DNA of 21,565 nt from a virus, in the IMG/VR virus record IMGVR_UViG_3300031963_014750, positions 1-21,565 of that record, one strand, 5' to 3'. The position numbers and the translations under genes are program-made. Every line of letters starts with the position of its first letter. Position 1 is the first letter of the stretch. Below the pieces are notes generated by a model, which did not search any database, had not been told where the DNA came from, and worked only from the letters and a program-made list of their open reading frames with translations. Of the stretch, positions 9,234 to 18,183 are shown one piece after another.

Positions 9234-10955
9234 ATGGCAACTTATAACAATTTTGGTTCCACTCAACAAAATAATTCAAACTTTGCATTTGCTTCTAATT
9301 CTGCAGTAGAAAACAAAGGATTATTTTCTAGGATTCTCAGAACACTTTCTAACTATGGAATGAATTACGATGATATGATAATTCGTAATCAAGTTGGTAT
9401 TGGTATAAATGAAGATCCATATGCGGCTAAAGGTAACTCGATGTATGATTTCTTTTCTCAAAGAGCAGTTGCGTCTGTTTTGAACAGAAAATCTATACCT
9501 TATTTAGATAAAGCATATGCTGATAAAAGAAGAATATTAAGAGAATATTCAATCAAAGATGAAATAAGAGATTTTGTTTCTACAATTTGTGATGAATCTA
9601 TTGTTTTCAATGATGATAGTGACTTTTGTGCTCCTAAATCTATTTCAAATGAATATTCTCAAGAGGTAAGAGACAAATATCAAGAATATTTTGAGAAAAT
9701 TTATAACAAATTTGGATTTTCTGATAATATAACTGCTTGGAGTATGATGAAAGATTTTCTAATTGATGGTCATATTGCAATAGAAATAATTTTTGATGAT
9801 AAAAAGAAAAACATTATTGGTTTTAATAGATTGAGACCTGACACTTTAGTTCCGGCATATGAACCAACTATAGGACATCTATGGATTCAGTTTCCTGAAG
9901 ATCCTCAATTAAGAAGAATATTTTTAGATTCTCAGATTATTTATGTCTCCTACTCTACACAAAATGATTATTCAGAGACATCTTATGTTGAGGGTTTAAT
10001 AAAGCCTTATAATCAATTAAAAATACTTGAACAAACAAGAATTATGTTCAATATAGTAAATGCGACTGTATATCAAAAATTCACGATTCCAATCAAAGGT
10101 TTATCAAGACAAAGAGCTGAGGAACAAATAGGTCAACTTATTCATGATTATTCAGAAGAAGTTGAATGGGATGATTCTTTAGGAACTTTGACTATTAATG
10201 GCGCCAAGCATTTACCTTATAATAAACAAATATGGTTTCCTGAAGGTGATGCTGGAACTCCGAATATGGAATTAGTTTCTCCACAGGGTCATGATTTGAA
10301 TGATGAAACTATGCTATCTTGGTTTTATAAAGCTCTTAAAAGAGCCTCTAAGATACCTATGCAACGATTTGAGGCTGAGAATGGTGGTGGAAATTTATTT
10401 GGAGACTCATCAGAAATGACTAGAGATGAAATTAAATTTCACAATTTCATTTCAAGATTACGTGCTAACTTTAAAGAATTGATAGTGAAACCTCTGAAAC
10501 TACAGATGTTGATAGAGTTTCCTGAACTGAAAGATGATGAAGTTTTCACAAATCAGGTAGATATTCAATTCTATTCTAATCAACTATTTGAAGATTGGAA
10601 GAAAATCAATAATCTGTCTAAAAGATCTGAGATTGTTGGAACTTTATTAGGAGTTATGAATGGTGAAAAACCTTATTTCCATATTGAATGGATTATGGAT
10701 AATGTATTCAAACTAACACCTGAACAGAAGGCTGAAAATGAAAGATATTGGGCTAGAGATGTGGCGAATGTCGCGGCTGGTGCAGCTGGTGCTGCTCCTG
10801 CAGAGGGTGGTGAGGCAGCTCCGGCTGAAGGCGGTGAGGCAGCTCCTGCGGAAGGTGGTGAAGCGGCTCCTGCTGAAGGTGAAGCTCCTGCTGAAGGTGG
10901 TGGAGAAGCTCCTGCTGAAGGTGGTGGAGAAGGTGGTGGAGAGTTTGAATTCTAA
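9234..10955 (+). CDS. 20: gp20-like portal vertex protein with Ala-Pro-Glu-Gly repeat tail
   Basis: This 573-residue protein is the T4 gp20 type portal, the dodecameric ring through which DNA enters and leaves the head and on which the prohead starts to assemble. Typical stretches are AVASVLNRKSIPYLDKAYADKRRILREYS, DFVSTICDESIV, WSMMKDFLIDGHIAIEIIFDD, the FNRLRPDTLVP strand, a YVEGLIKPYNQLKILEQTRIMFNIVNA helix and LFGDSSEMTRDEIKFHNFISRLRANF. Residues up to about 515 form the portal body. The last about 55 residues are imperfect AAPAEGGE-type repeats that T4 gp20 does not have. The gene is preceded by the late-promoter element. Its stop overlaps the convergent minus-strand cluster by 4 nt. Confidence 0.95.
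   Translation: MATYNNFGSTQQNNSNFAFASNSAVENKGLFSRILRTLSNYGMNYDDMIIRNQVGIGINEDPYAAKGNSMYDFFSQRAVASVLNRKSIPYLDKAYADKRRILREYSIKDEIRDFVSTICDESIVFNDDSDFCAPKSISNEYSQEVRDKYQEYFEKIYNKFGFSDNITAWSMMKDFLIDGHIAIEIIFDDKKKNIIGFNRLRPDTLVPAYEPTIGHLWIQFPEDPQLRRIFLDSQIIYVSYSTQNDYSETSYVEGLIKPYNQLKILEQTRIMFNIVNATVYQKFTIPIKGLSRQRAEEQIGQLIHDYSEEVEWDDSLGTLTINGAKHLPYNKQIWFPEGDAGTPNMELVSPQGHDLNDETMLSWFYKALKRASKIPMQRFEAENGGGNLFGDSSEMTRDEIKFHNFISRLRANFKELIVKPLKLQMLIEFPELKDDEVFTNQVDIQFYSNQLFEDWKKINNLSKRSEIVGTLLGVMNGEKPYFHIEWIMDNVFKLTPEQKAENERYWARDVANVAAGAAGAAPAEGGEAAPAEGGEAAPAEGGEAAPAEGEAPAEGGGEAPAEGGGEGGGEFEF
10777..10952 (+). repeat. Imperfect AAPAEGGE-coding repeats at the portal C-terminus
   Basis: About six to seven imperfect units of 15-24 nt encode Ala-Ala-Pro-Ala-Glu-Gly-Gly-Glu and shortened Ala-Pro-Ala-Glu-Gly-Gly-Gly forms. 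The unit differs in third positions, so the array is older or less homogenised than the perfect array at 1-144. The region is markedly more GC-rich than its surroundings. Confidence 0.9.
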
Positions 10956-14283: not shown

Positions 14284-16374
14284 ATGAAACCAGTTTTAAT
14301 AGTAGAAAACTCAACTAATTCTCTTATTAGAGAAAATTCTTCTAGTAAGAAGGATTATATCTTAGGAGGTACATTCACGGAATTTGGTGTTAAGAATAGA
14401 AACGAAAGAATCTATACTGCAGATAAATTCCTTCCTGCCTTAGATGAATTAAACGAAAGAATGAATAGTTTAGGTGCTGTTTATGGTGAATTTGACCACC
14501 CAGATGTTTTTGATACATCTTTGGCAAGAGCATCTCACACAATCACTAAAGCGCAATACATTAAAGAACAAAACTTAGTATCTGGTGAAATTAAACTTTT
14601 ATCAACTTATTGGGGTAAAGAGGCAAAGGCTTTGGTTGATGATGGTTGTCCAGTATTTGTATCATCAAGAGCAGCTGGTATCACTGAATCTGATGGTTCT
14701 GTTTCTTTGAAAAAACTTTTCACATATGATATAGTAGCTGACCCAGGTTTTGCTTCTGCAAAAATGAGTGTTAAAGTTTTGAATGAGTCCTTAGGATACA
14801 ATCCACAATCTAACTTTAGGATATATGAAATGTCCGACGAGTCTAAAATAAATGAATTATTCAACATGAACAAAAACGAATTCGTAACAAAAAAACAGTT
14901 GACTGATTATTCACAATACTTAGTAAATGAGATTGCCTCTACTAAGAAAGAAGTCAAAAATGCAATTTCTAAAGGAAATATGAGTCCTAAAAAATTAGAA
15001 CAACTACTTGAGTATTATGAGGAGTTAAACGAGACAAATTCTAAAGTGGTAAAATACTTAGATTATTTAGCTGAGAAAATTCAAGTTGTTGTAAATGAGA
15101 ACAAATCTCTTAAATCTACGACTGAAAAATTAGTTAAACACAATGATTATTTAGCTGAAAACTTAGAAAAGGCTATTAATTACACAGAGTATGTTGCTGA
15201 AAATTTAGATAAAAATATTGAGTACTCAGAGTATTTAGCTGAGAATCTTGATAAGAATATTTCTTATTCTGAATATATCGCTGAAAACTTAGACAAAAAC
15301 ATTTCTTATTCTGAATATTTGGCTGAAAACTTAGACAAAAATATTGCTTACTCTGAATATTTGGCTGAAAACTTAGACAAAAATATTGCTTACTCTGAAT
15401 ACATCGCTGAAAACTTAGATAAAAACATTGCTTATGCTGAGTATATAGCTGAACATGTTGATAATTCTATTGCTTATTCTGAGTATTTAGCAGAGCATGT
15501 TGAAGGTAATATTGCTTACTCTGAATACATCGCTGAACATTTAGATGATAATATTGCTTACTCTGAATACATCGCTGAAAGCTTAGATAAATCAATTTCT
15601 TATCAAGGATTAATCGTTGAAAAATTAAATGGTGGTAAATTATTCGAATCAGAAGGTGCATTTCCTTCTTTAAACGCTGCTGGTTTTGAAATGGTTGAAG
15701 ATGATGAAAAAGAAAATTCTTGGAATAAAGAAGATGATGAAGAAGCAGAATATAACATGAATGGTGTTCCAGCTGCTGAAGCGACTCACGTTCATAATAA
15801 AGAGGAAGAAGAGGAAGAATGTGGTCCATCTTCTTACGAAGTAACAGGAAAAGACGATACTGAATTATCAGAATCTATTAATAAACTTATTGAAGAAGCT
15901 AAAAAACGTAAAGTTTCTGAAACTACTGACTTGAATTTCTTAAAGTTCTTAAACAAGTCACAAGTAGATAGCTTTTATGCATTATCAGACGAAGAACAGG
16001 AAACTGTAAAACTTCACATAAACGAAAGAAGTTATTTCACACAGAAAGATGTGTTAGGTCTGATCGCAGAAGCATTATCAACTAAGAACGAGACTCTTGA
16101 AGAAAGAGTTATCAGATTGATGCCTGAAAACGTTAAGCCAGTCTGGAATCAGTTAAATGAGTCTTCTAAAAAATCATTGCTTTCTCAAGCAAGACTTTAT
16201 CCAGAAGATGTATTAAAAACTGAAGCACAAGTTGAGCATTTCTGGTTGACTAGAAATCTCAAAAAGAATGAATCAGTTACTAAGAAATTAGTTTCACATG
16301 AGGCACTTATCCAAGAAGATAAAATCTCAGACAATGAAGCTCAAGCAATCTTAGAAAGATTCAAAAATTTATAA
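14284..16374 (+). CDS. 21: Prohead protease (gp21-like) fused to a gp22-like scaffold
   Basis: This 696-residue protein begins with a gp21-type serine protease (about 25-165): GGTFTEFGVKNRNERIY, then GEFDHPD with the expected catalytic His72, then VFVSSRAAG with the catalytic Ser at 127 or 128, and YDIVADPGFASA. The rest is far longer than any gp21. It contains a helical region, eleven contiguous 14-residue repeats (about 288-442) each with [L/I/V]-A-E, a strongly acidic linker (about 475-520), and a helical C-terminal domain containing SLLSQARLYPEDVL. Repetitive, acidic and helical sequence is what a T4 gp22-type core scaffold looks like, and no separate gene 22 lies between this gene and gp23. 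Protease and scaffold would then be made 1:1 unless processed. Candidate self-cleavage sites near the N-terminus are LIVE (8) and LIRE (17). Confidence 0.85.
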   Translation: MKPVLIVENSTNSLIRENSSSKKDYILGGTFTEFGVKNRNERIYTADKFLPALDELNERMNSLGAVYGEFDHPDVFDTSLARASHTITKAQYIKEQNLVSGEIKLLSTYWGKEAKALVDDGCPVFVSSRAAGITESDGSVSLKKLFTYDIVADPGFASAKMSVKVLNESLGYNPQSNFRIYEMSDESKINELFNMNKNEFVTKKQLTDYSQYLVNEIASTKKEVKNAISKGNMSPKKLEQLLEYYEELNETNSKVVKYLDYLAEKIQVVVNENKSLKSTTEKLVKHNDYLAENLEKAINYTEYVAENLDKNIEYSEYLAENLDKNISYSEYIAENLDKNISYSEYLAENLDKNIAYSEYLAENLDKNIAYSEYIAENLDKNIAYAEYIAEHVDNSIAYSEYLAEHVEGNIAYSEYIAEHLDDNIAYSEYIAESLDKSISYQGLIVEKLNGGKLFESEGAFPSLNAAGFEMVEDDEKENSWNKEDDEEAEYNMNGVPAAEATHVHNKEEEEEECGPSSYEVTGKDDTELSESINKLIEEAKKRKVSETTDLNFLKFLNKSQVDSFYALSDEEQETVKLHINERSYFTQKDVLGLIAEALSTKNETLEERVIRLMPENVKPVWNQLNESSKKSLLSQARLYPEDVLKTEAQVEHFWLTRNLKKNESVTKKLVSHEALIQEDKISDNEAQAILERFKNL
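15145..15606 (+). repeat. Eleven 42-bp repeats coding for YSEYLAENLDKNIA-type units
   Basis: The array codes for eleven contiguous 14-residue units of the form S-E-Y-[L/I]-A-E-[N/H]-[L/V]-D-K-N-I-[A/S]-Y, flanked by degenerate copies. DNA identity is highest in the middle (about 15285-15420) and falls toward both ends, the pattern of unequal exchange. The [L/I/V]-A-E core is kept in all units, while the second half varies. Confidence 0.93.
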
Positions 16375-16458: not shown

Positions 16459-18183
16459 ATGTCACACATTAGAATAGACAAATCTAAAGCTATCAAGAAA
16501 TGGTCTCCAGTTCTTGAGAACATGGGTGTTACTGGTGAGAGAATTGATTGGATGTCAGAATATGCTGAGTTCCACTCAATCAACGAGAACGCTTATGTGA
16601 ATGCTTCTAACGTTGCTGGTATGGGTGGTGTTGTTGCTCCACAACCTTCAACTTTAGCTGGTTCAACAATTGGTAACAATTGGGCTGGTTTTGGTGGTTC
16701 AAATGGTTCAGGAGATGTAGGTCAAAACTTACTTCCTGTAGCTATGAAAATTGCTGCTCAAACAATCGGTCTTGACCTTGTTGCTGTTAAACCATCTCCA
16801 GGTCCGAAAATCGACCTTCTTTACATCGACTTCCAATACGATGATACTCGTTTAGGAAATGAAGATGAAAGACCACAAGTTTTCAAAATTGCTCCTAAAA
16901 CAGCAGGATTGACTTCTACTAAATTAACAGCAGTTATCGCTGGTCTTAGAGCTCAGTTAGCAGCTTCTTCTCCAGTTATTAGCGAAACTACAGGTGGTTT
17001 AAATGGTAGAATTTGGAATAACATCGATACAGGTGCTGCAATTACTTCAGAGCCATCTGATAAAGAAAATAAAGTTGAATTTTTAGGATTCTCAAGAATT
17101 GATGGTTATCCAATGTTCAGAGCTTACAGACAATTCAACACGTCTCATACAGCGGTTGGTTCTGCAGCTACAACTTGGGCTTTTGATACAACAAGAAATA
17201 CATTTGATTCTACAACGTCTATGGCTTCTCAAATCATTGCTTTAGGTGGTACTGCTTTAGGTGGTGAGCCTGCAATCGAATTGGTTTCTGCGTTAGAAGA
17301 TCATATCCCTGGTTTTTCTGCAAACTGGAACTCTGGTTCAACTTCTCAATTCTCTGGACAATATCCAATGGATAGAGATCAAGATGACTCAAGATATTCT
17401 GGAGTTATCGGACCAAAAATCTCTTCTAAAACTATCGCAGTTGGTACTATTGAAGTATCTTCAGCTCTTAGAAGAACTGAAATTGAAGATATCAAAGCTA
17501 ACACAGGTATGGATATCGTTCAAAAAATGGAATCTATTCTTGTTAATGAATTATCTCAAACAATTTCTAAGCAAATCGTTGCTAAGATTTTTGAAATGGG
17601 TGATCTTAACAGAACTAGCGCGCCTTTAGCTGGATTAACTTTCTCAACTAATATTGCTAGCCAAACAATCTTTGACTTAGATACTACTTATGTAACTAGT
17701 ACAGTTGGTGGTGAAACTACTCACGCCGTACAAAGAAAACTTATCACTAAAATTGCTCACGCTTCTAACTACATTGCAACTGAAGGTCGTGTAGGTCCAG
17801 CTCAATACCTTATCACAAACGGGGGTCTTGCTGCTGCTTTAGCTGATATTTCTGGTTACACTATTAACCCAGTTAAGTCTAAGTTAAACGGACAAGGTCA
17901 ATTATATCCTGTTGGTTCAATCGGTGATATTTCTATCTACGTTGATCCATATATGAGATATAATGATAACAGAATCGTTCTTGGTAGAAAGAACAATCCT
18001 GATCAACCAGGTATCATTTTCGTACCTTATTTAATGGCACAATCAATCTCTTTGATTTCTGAGGCTACTTTTGCTCCAAGAATGTTGTTGAGATCTAGAT
18101 ATGCTGTTGCTGAAGTTGGTTGGTTCCCACAAAAACAGTTTATGACTATTAAAGTTTCTGATTCTTATGGATTATTAAACTAA
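16459..18183 (+). CDS. 23: gp23-like major capsid protein
   Basis: This 574-residue protein is the T4 gp23-type major capsid protein with the HK97-like fold that builds the head hexamers. Family stretches include NLLPVAMKIAAQTIGLDLVAVKPSPGPKIDLLYIDFQY, SSALRRTEIEDIKANTGMDIVQKMESILVNELSQTISKQIV, and the C-terminal IIFVPYLMAQSISLISEATFAPRMLLRSRYAVAEVGWFP. T4 gp23 is trimmed at its N-terminus by gp21 after a short motif ending in Glu. Here the best candidate is S-I-N-E at residue 43 before Asn44, which would remove a 43-residue propeptide. Many codons end in C (ATC, TTC, AAC), unlike neighbouring genes, as expected for the most abundant virion protein. A strong terminator follows. Confidence 0.96.
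   Translation: MSHIRIDKSKAIKKWSPVLENMGVTGERIDWMSEYAEFHSINENAYVNASNVAGMGGVVAPQPSTLAGSTIGNNWAGFGGSNGSGDVGQNLLPVAMKIAAQTIGLDLVAVKPSPGPKIDLLYIDFQYDDTRLGNEDERPQVFKIAPKTAGLTSTKLTAVIAGLRAQLAASSPVISETTGGLNGRIWNNIDTGAAITSEPSDKENKVEFLGFSRIDGYPMFRAYRQFNTSHTAVGSAATTWAFDTTRNTFDSTTSMASQIIALGGTALGGEPAIELVSALEDHIPGFSANWNSGSTSQFSGQYPMDRDQDDSRYSGVIGPKISSKTIAVGTIEVSSALRRTEIEDIKANTGMDIVQKMESILVNELSQTISKQIVAKIFEMGDLNRTSAPLAGLTFSTNIASQTIFDLDTTYVTSTVGGETTHAVQRKLITKIAHASNYIATEGRVGPAQYLITNGGLAAALADISGYTINPVKSKLNGQGQLYPVGSIGDISIYVDPYMRYNDNRIVLGRKNNPDQPGIIFVPYLMAQSISLISEATFAPRMLLRSRYAVAEVGWFPQKQFMTIKVSDSYGLLN

Follow-up and report, generated by a model that had tools for sequence, protein, structure and literature searches.

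The window, by which we mean the whole 21.6-kb virus record that was analysed, carries T4-type head genes in the order portal, fusion gene and gp23-type capsid gene, with the fusion gene placed directly before the capsid gene (Table 1; arrows mark predicted cuts). At the contig end, positions 1-145 hold a perfect 18-bp tandem repeat with 8 copies of GGACAGGGTCAAGCACAA.

Table 1. Head genes of the window and features of the fusion protein and its predicted substrates
Feature	Position	Strand	Basis or remark
Portal protein, gp20-type	9234..10955	+	Pfam PF07230, E 6e-58
Fusion gene (protease and putative scaffold), 696 aa	14284..16374	+	Single open ORF
T4 gp21-type prohead protease domain, residues 1-165	14284..14778	+	PHROG 207, hhalign, Foldseek
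Candidate self-cut site L-N-E↓S, residues 166-169	14779..14790	+	N167-E168 invariant in alignment
Linker block, AACTTTAGGATATATGAAATGTCCGA..AAAATAAA, with a conserved internal ATG (M195) at its end	14812..14868	+	Synonymous sites conserved
Outlying in-phase repeat unit YLDYLAEKIQVVVN, residues 258-271	15055..15096	+	
12 contiguous 14-residue units, residues 286-453, each with Glu at position 7	15139..15642	+	
Acidic low-complexity linker, variable length	15643..15858	+	pLDDT mostly <50
Conserved C-terminal helical domain, residues 526-696	15859..16371	+	hmmsearch matches
Major capsid protein, gp23-type	16459..18183	+	Pfam PF07068, E 1e-27
Capsid protein, predicted cut at I-N-E↓N, residues 41-44	16579..16590	+	
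Candidate repeat substrate of the fused protease, peptide YSEYLAENLDKNIA			P1 Glu

The N-terminal domain of the fusion protein matches PHROG 207 (E 6e-30), aligns with T4 gp21 in hhalign (E 6.5e-7) and, when its predicted model was searched with Foldseek, gave three significant matches, all of them chains of the T4 gp21 structure 5jbl (E 1e-7 to 4e-7, prob 1.00). A histidine (H72, within GEFDHP) and the S127, S128, R129 stretch are invariant among 25 aligned sequences, and these two motifs align with the NHPP and SSR of T4 gp21. The first-pass annotation, made from the letters alone, was therefore right in placing a protease in the same polypeptide as the repeats. Close to the N-terminus lies an IVE↓N with an invariant E8, comparable to LIE-9 of T4 gp21, and the conserved candidate sites suggest that the domain would cut after L/I-x-E. 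A second protease-like ORF of 181 residues is present in the related genome LR756501 (11437-11805), and is 43% identical to residues 29-152 of the window protease.

Between the protease and the repeats, the DNA of the linker block is near-invariant, including synonymous sites and the less common ATA and AGG codons. It is possible that M195 serves as an internal start for the scaffold alone, or that the block holds an internal promoter; synonymous conservation is as high in other blocks of the fusion gene, including C-terminal ones. The conserved C-terminal domain is also found in Lak phages and in the Tenacibaculum phage pT24 (hmmsearch 1e-9 to 1e-8 against an 8-sequence target set).

The repeat region had been described as eleven contiguous 14-residue units at 15145-15606, and this stretch indeed corresponds to residues 288-441, or exactly 11 x 14. 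Each of the eleven carries [L/I/V]-A-E (five LAE, five IAE and one VAE), followed by N in seven, H in three and S in one, as had been read. The array is in fact longer, with a twelfth contiguous unit that reads IVEK and a further in-phase copy (YLDYLAEK) upstream of it at residue 258. At the DNA level, TRF recovers a 42-nt array (period 42, score 369). The frequency of [LIV]xE is 7.1 per 100 residues within the array versus 4.3 in the remainder of the same proteins, so that it is the regular spacing, beyond density alone, that is the unusual feature. A Pfam PSCyt2 match over the repeats falls below the curated cut-off and was taken as compositional. Three to four copies of the 14-residue unit also occur in a 207-residue Gly/Ser-rich protein (L252; LR756501 619600-620900) and in an 83-residue ORF (L110; LR745206 near 460483), both of which are small and look unrelated.

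The closest full-length relatives of the fusion protein are those of the Mahaphages (634-735 kb), namely LR745206 (634,780 bases), LR756502 (642,428), LR756501 (735,411) and LR756504 (636,363), the window protein being 80-82% identical to the first two. Mahaphages are the largest-genome group in Al-Shayeb et al., with predicted replication in Bacteroidetes (PMC7162821). A search of IMG/VR for relatives of the fusion gene found 88, of which 80 were kept, and unit statistics were drawn from 440 units in 37 dereplicated homologues. These have 11-13 units each, and Glu at position 7 (Glu7) is present in 439 of the 440 units, making it the best-kept column (entropy 0.02 bits), ahead of Tyr1 (0.43), Tyr4 (0.50) and Ala6 (0.56), each of which is at about 91-92% over all units. 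Both Glu codons are in use (286 GAA and 153 GAG), which indicates that the constraint acts on the residue. Neither Asp nor Gln occurs at position 7 in any of the 440 units, although Glu and Asp do swap at positions 3 and 10. The absence of Asp is informative because in the T4 capsid-targeting sequence Asp at residue 10, the P1 Glu, blocks processing and not targeting (PMC9026906). A salt bridge between Glu7 and Lys11 was considered and rejected as the reason for the conservation, since Glu7 is kept irrespective of whether residue 11 is K, N, D, G or S, and this speaks against a simple i,i+4 pairing.

Glu3 proved a weaker internal control than the pooled counts imply, because most of its changes lie in end units: in interior units Glu3 is kept in 325 of 333 and Glu7 in 333 of 333, and counted by cluster the contrast is 6/37 versus 0/37 (p 0.025). 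As Glu3 is near-constant inside the array and the units of one family are non-independent, the Glu7 counts are strong and not decisive. The earlier statement that the LAE/IAE core is kept as the remainder varies accordingly holds for Glu7, and is overstated for the remainder: Mahaphages also show strong conservation of Tyr1, Glu3, Tyr4 and Ala6, pointing to a unit that is constrained beyond the cut site.

With the LR756500 protein as query we found a sister clade of 22 loci, whose proteins are about 33-37% identical to the window protein and keep the 14-residue register over 8 to 11 units. Here position 5 is I, V or L in 84/88 units and position 7 is Glu in 63/88, position 8 is mostly N, G, H, S or K, and position 6, Ala in Mahaphages, is the most variable column (H 3.0 bits; V, A, I, G, K, N, S). 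The sister unit can thus be written [LIV]-x-E-[NGH], matching the L/I-x-E rule of T4 gp21 (PMC9026906) with P2 free and V also allowed. The Glu is lost in most members mainly at two fixed units, the first (VGLK) and the sixth (IVKS, VATS), and about half of the Glu are retained in the LR756500 array. The first-pass annotation had named Glu-less repeats beside a kept protease as an observation that would speak against cutting; this was found in part, as the sister protease is intact and units 1 and 6 are mostly without Glu. Strict 14-residue spacing of sites is a Mahaphage trait, not general to relatives, and cutting would not occur at each unit in all of them.

Could the tandem arrangement merely be a product of recent slippage, with the Glu under no special selection? 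Shifted copies of the DNA array are 62-82% identical, as slippage would leave them, but the Glu is fixed where synonymous positions vary freely and both period and register are the same in sisters at about 35% identity, which makes this explanation highly improbable. A different concern is raised by the predicted structure. AlphaFold, run with 25 sequences, places a single helix of 173 residues at 276-448 (pLDDT about 60-70), in a model (mean pLDDT 59.9) that carries little confidence beyond the protease. Fourteen residues equal two heptads, and the array shows weak sequence matches to designed helix bundles. It might be only an uncut structural element, a coiled-coil rod or a length ruler, with Glu7 conserved because it takes part in packing or in surface contacts; the narrow range of unit number in Mahaphages, and the period that sisters keep even where Glu is lost, are in line with this. 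Set against it are the intolerance of Asp and Gln at Mahaphage Glu7 and its indifference to residue 11, the persistence of sister Glu7 with a hydrophobic P3 and N, G or H at P1' where Ala6 is freed, and the recurrence of the same residues in the predicted cut site of the capsid protein. On balance we regard a purely structural rod as unlikely.

This capsid site reads INE↓N in 43 of the 44 distinct N-termini listed and IHE↓N in the other (L085); in L084 it is MNE↓N. In sisters the equivalent stretch reads LYE↓N or LNE↓S, and in Lak phages it reads LNE↓D. In T4 gp23 the known propeptide end is FLTE↓A at residue 65 (PMC9026906). The capsid protein is thus predicted to be cut by the same rule that the repeat units obey, with matches at P3, P1 and P1'.

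Taken together, these observations suggest that the gene probably encodes a fusion of protease and scaffold, with a helical rod that the protease cleaves at numerous sites set at regular intervals. We infer that the array would form the long rod of a scaffold, each 14-residue unit offering one [LIV]-x-E recognition site after whose Glu the fused gp21-type protease would cut. The fusion protein would co-assemble with the capsid protein within the prohead and the protease would release itself at L-N-E↓S; once freed, it would remove the end of the capsid protein up to I-N-E↓N and would cut the rod, perhaps completely, into peptides small enough to exit, whose departure would make room for DNA. 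Counting against a cleavable rod are the need of a stable helical coil to unfold prior to cutting, the predicted nature of the capsid cut sites themselves, the conservation of Mahaphage unit residues other than those of the cut site, and the loss of Glu in fixed sister units despite a kept protease. The original idea of a self-shredding scaffold hence survives in the protease, the fusion, the constraint on Glu, the free sister P2 and the capsid-site match, and not in strict spacing beyond Mahaphages.

In T4, gp21 cuts after L/I-x-E and gp22 is cut into fragments (PMC9026906, PMC5694885). Common to T4 and the present system are the gp21 fold and motifs, the position just before gp23 and the many [LI]xE sites, of which the 269-residue T4 gp22 has 16 (NC_000866); the rod region, like gp22, lies between the protease and the major capsid protein. 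Unlike here, where the protease and presumed scaffold share one chain, gp21 and gp22 are separate proteins, and gp22 lacks the strict 14-residue register of sites. Homology to gp22 is undetectable: PHROG 237 was not matched by any of 6 related large genomes (T4 positive control, E 9e-96), and the rod as a gp22 homologue yielded nothing convincing (rod profile versus gp22, E 0.045 in an 8-sequence set). These phages may also possess a separate scaffold unrelated to gp22. In the C/Nu3-type fusion of lambda the scaffold extends the protease, as the presumed scaffold does here, where an internal start is possible. The fold of the lambda C protease is unrelated to that of the gp21-type protease, and we know of no comparable repeat array in Nu3. 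The distant gp21 relatives phiKZ gp175 and SPN3US gp245 cut after x-x-E at multiple propeptide sites (PMC10052503), and share with the fusion their gp21 relatedness and the multiplicity of sites; these are placed within propeptides, with an A-x-E motif in SPN3US, unlike the rod sites, and no gp22 counterpart has been confirmed in these phages (PMC5694885). No earlier description of the fusion or its repeats was found in the searched literature, which excluded most subscription journals. The system is probably a variant of T4-type scaffold maturation, with protease and presumed scaffold in one chain and candidate cut sites on a 14-residue register.

The repeat unit, with its core Y-S-E-Y-[LI]-A-E, further has a likeness, absent from the first-pass annotation, to the capsid-targeting sequence of T4 IPII and IPIII, which begin MKTYQEFIAE (NC_000866) and are cut before an A; residues 4 and 7 of this sequence direct targeting, and residues 8 and 10 processing (PMC9026906). 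The spacing Y-x-E-[FY]-[IL]-A-E, with the Glu last, is common to both, but the T4 sequence is N-terminal and has A after the Glu, whereas the unit here is internal, in 12 tandem copies, and has N, H or S. Three genomes that bear the array show enrichment of the pattern [YF]xx[FY][LIVM]xE at protein N-termini, by 5.3x in LR745206 (23 ORFs), 13.4x in the first 400 kb of LR756501 (34 ORFs) and 11.1x in the first 400 kb of LR756500 (19 ORFs); Lak-B2, a genome without the array, showed none at N-termini over the 400 kb surveyed. LR745206 shows two more leader classes, in which FE falls at residues 7-8 or at 10-11; each class numbers 29 ORFs (58 together), over a baseline of about 3 per position. 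Window ORFs at 243, 871, 18259, 18658, 20195, 20777 and 21056 begin with leaders such as MKYLKYFES, MKYIKLFES, MRYLTDFKFFES and MNLLKYSQIFEA, which are candidates for leaders that target packaged proteins to the capsid, one SET-domain and one NFACT-R protein among them.

Tentatively, the rod might consist of tandem capsid-targeting modules, of which the leaders of internal proteins are single copies that pack like-with-like, so that one motif would both free the cargo and destroy the scaffold; we consider this possible, if doubtful. Another reading, in which the array serves above all as a lattice where cargo leaders dock along the rod and cutting is secondary or shared, draws on the same T4-like spacing and the same N-terminal enrichment, but T4 has such leaders though its gp22 is without the pattern, and most LR745206 leaders (MKYLKxFE, MKYLKxYK[LI]FE) are without that spacing. 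We think such a primary role quite unlikely; a docking role is in any case compatible with cutting of the rod.

Some further features of the related genomes were noted. In LR745206, the 40 bases preceding start codons are strongly enriched in AATATATA / TAATATAT; of 688 upstream regions, 151 hold AATATATA. The frequency of AAAAATAA has its peak at -17 to -19 before ORFs. These probably serve the phage as promoter and start-region signals. Scattered short ORFs in LR745206, LR756501 and LR756502 are similar to parts of the capsid protein, as though head genes had been broken up and dispersed as genes of their own, an example being a 169-residue ORF that matches capsid residues 7-46 plus 89-121.

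The fusion gene provides a concrete candidate scaffold for Mahaphages and, through its sequence, a handle on the proteins possibly carried within Mahaphage heads. Its reading as a cleavable rod predicts peptides of 14 residues with LAE or IAE at the C-terminus. If the rod does consist of targeting modules, cargo would enter the head by the packing of leaders along the scaffold rod.
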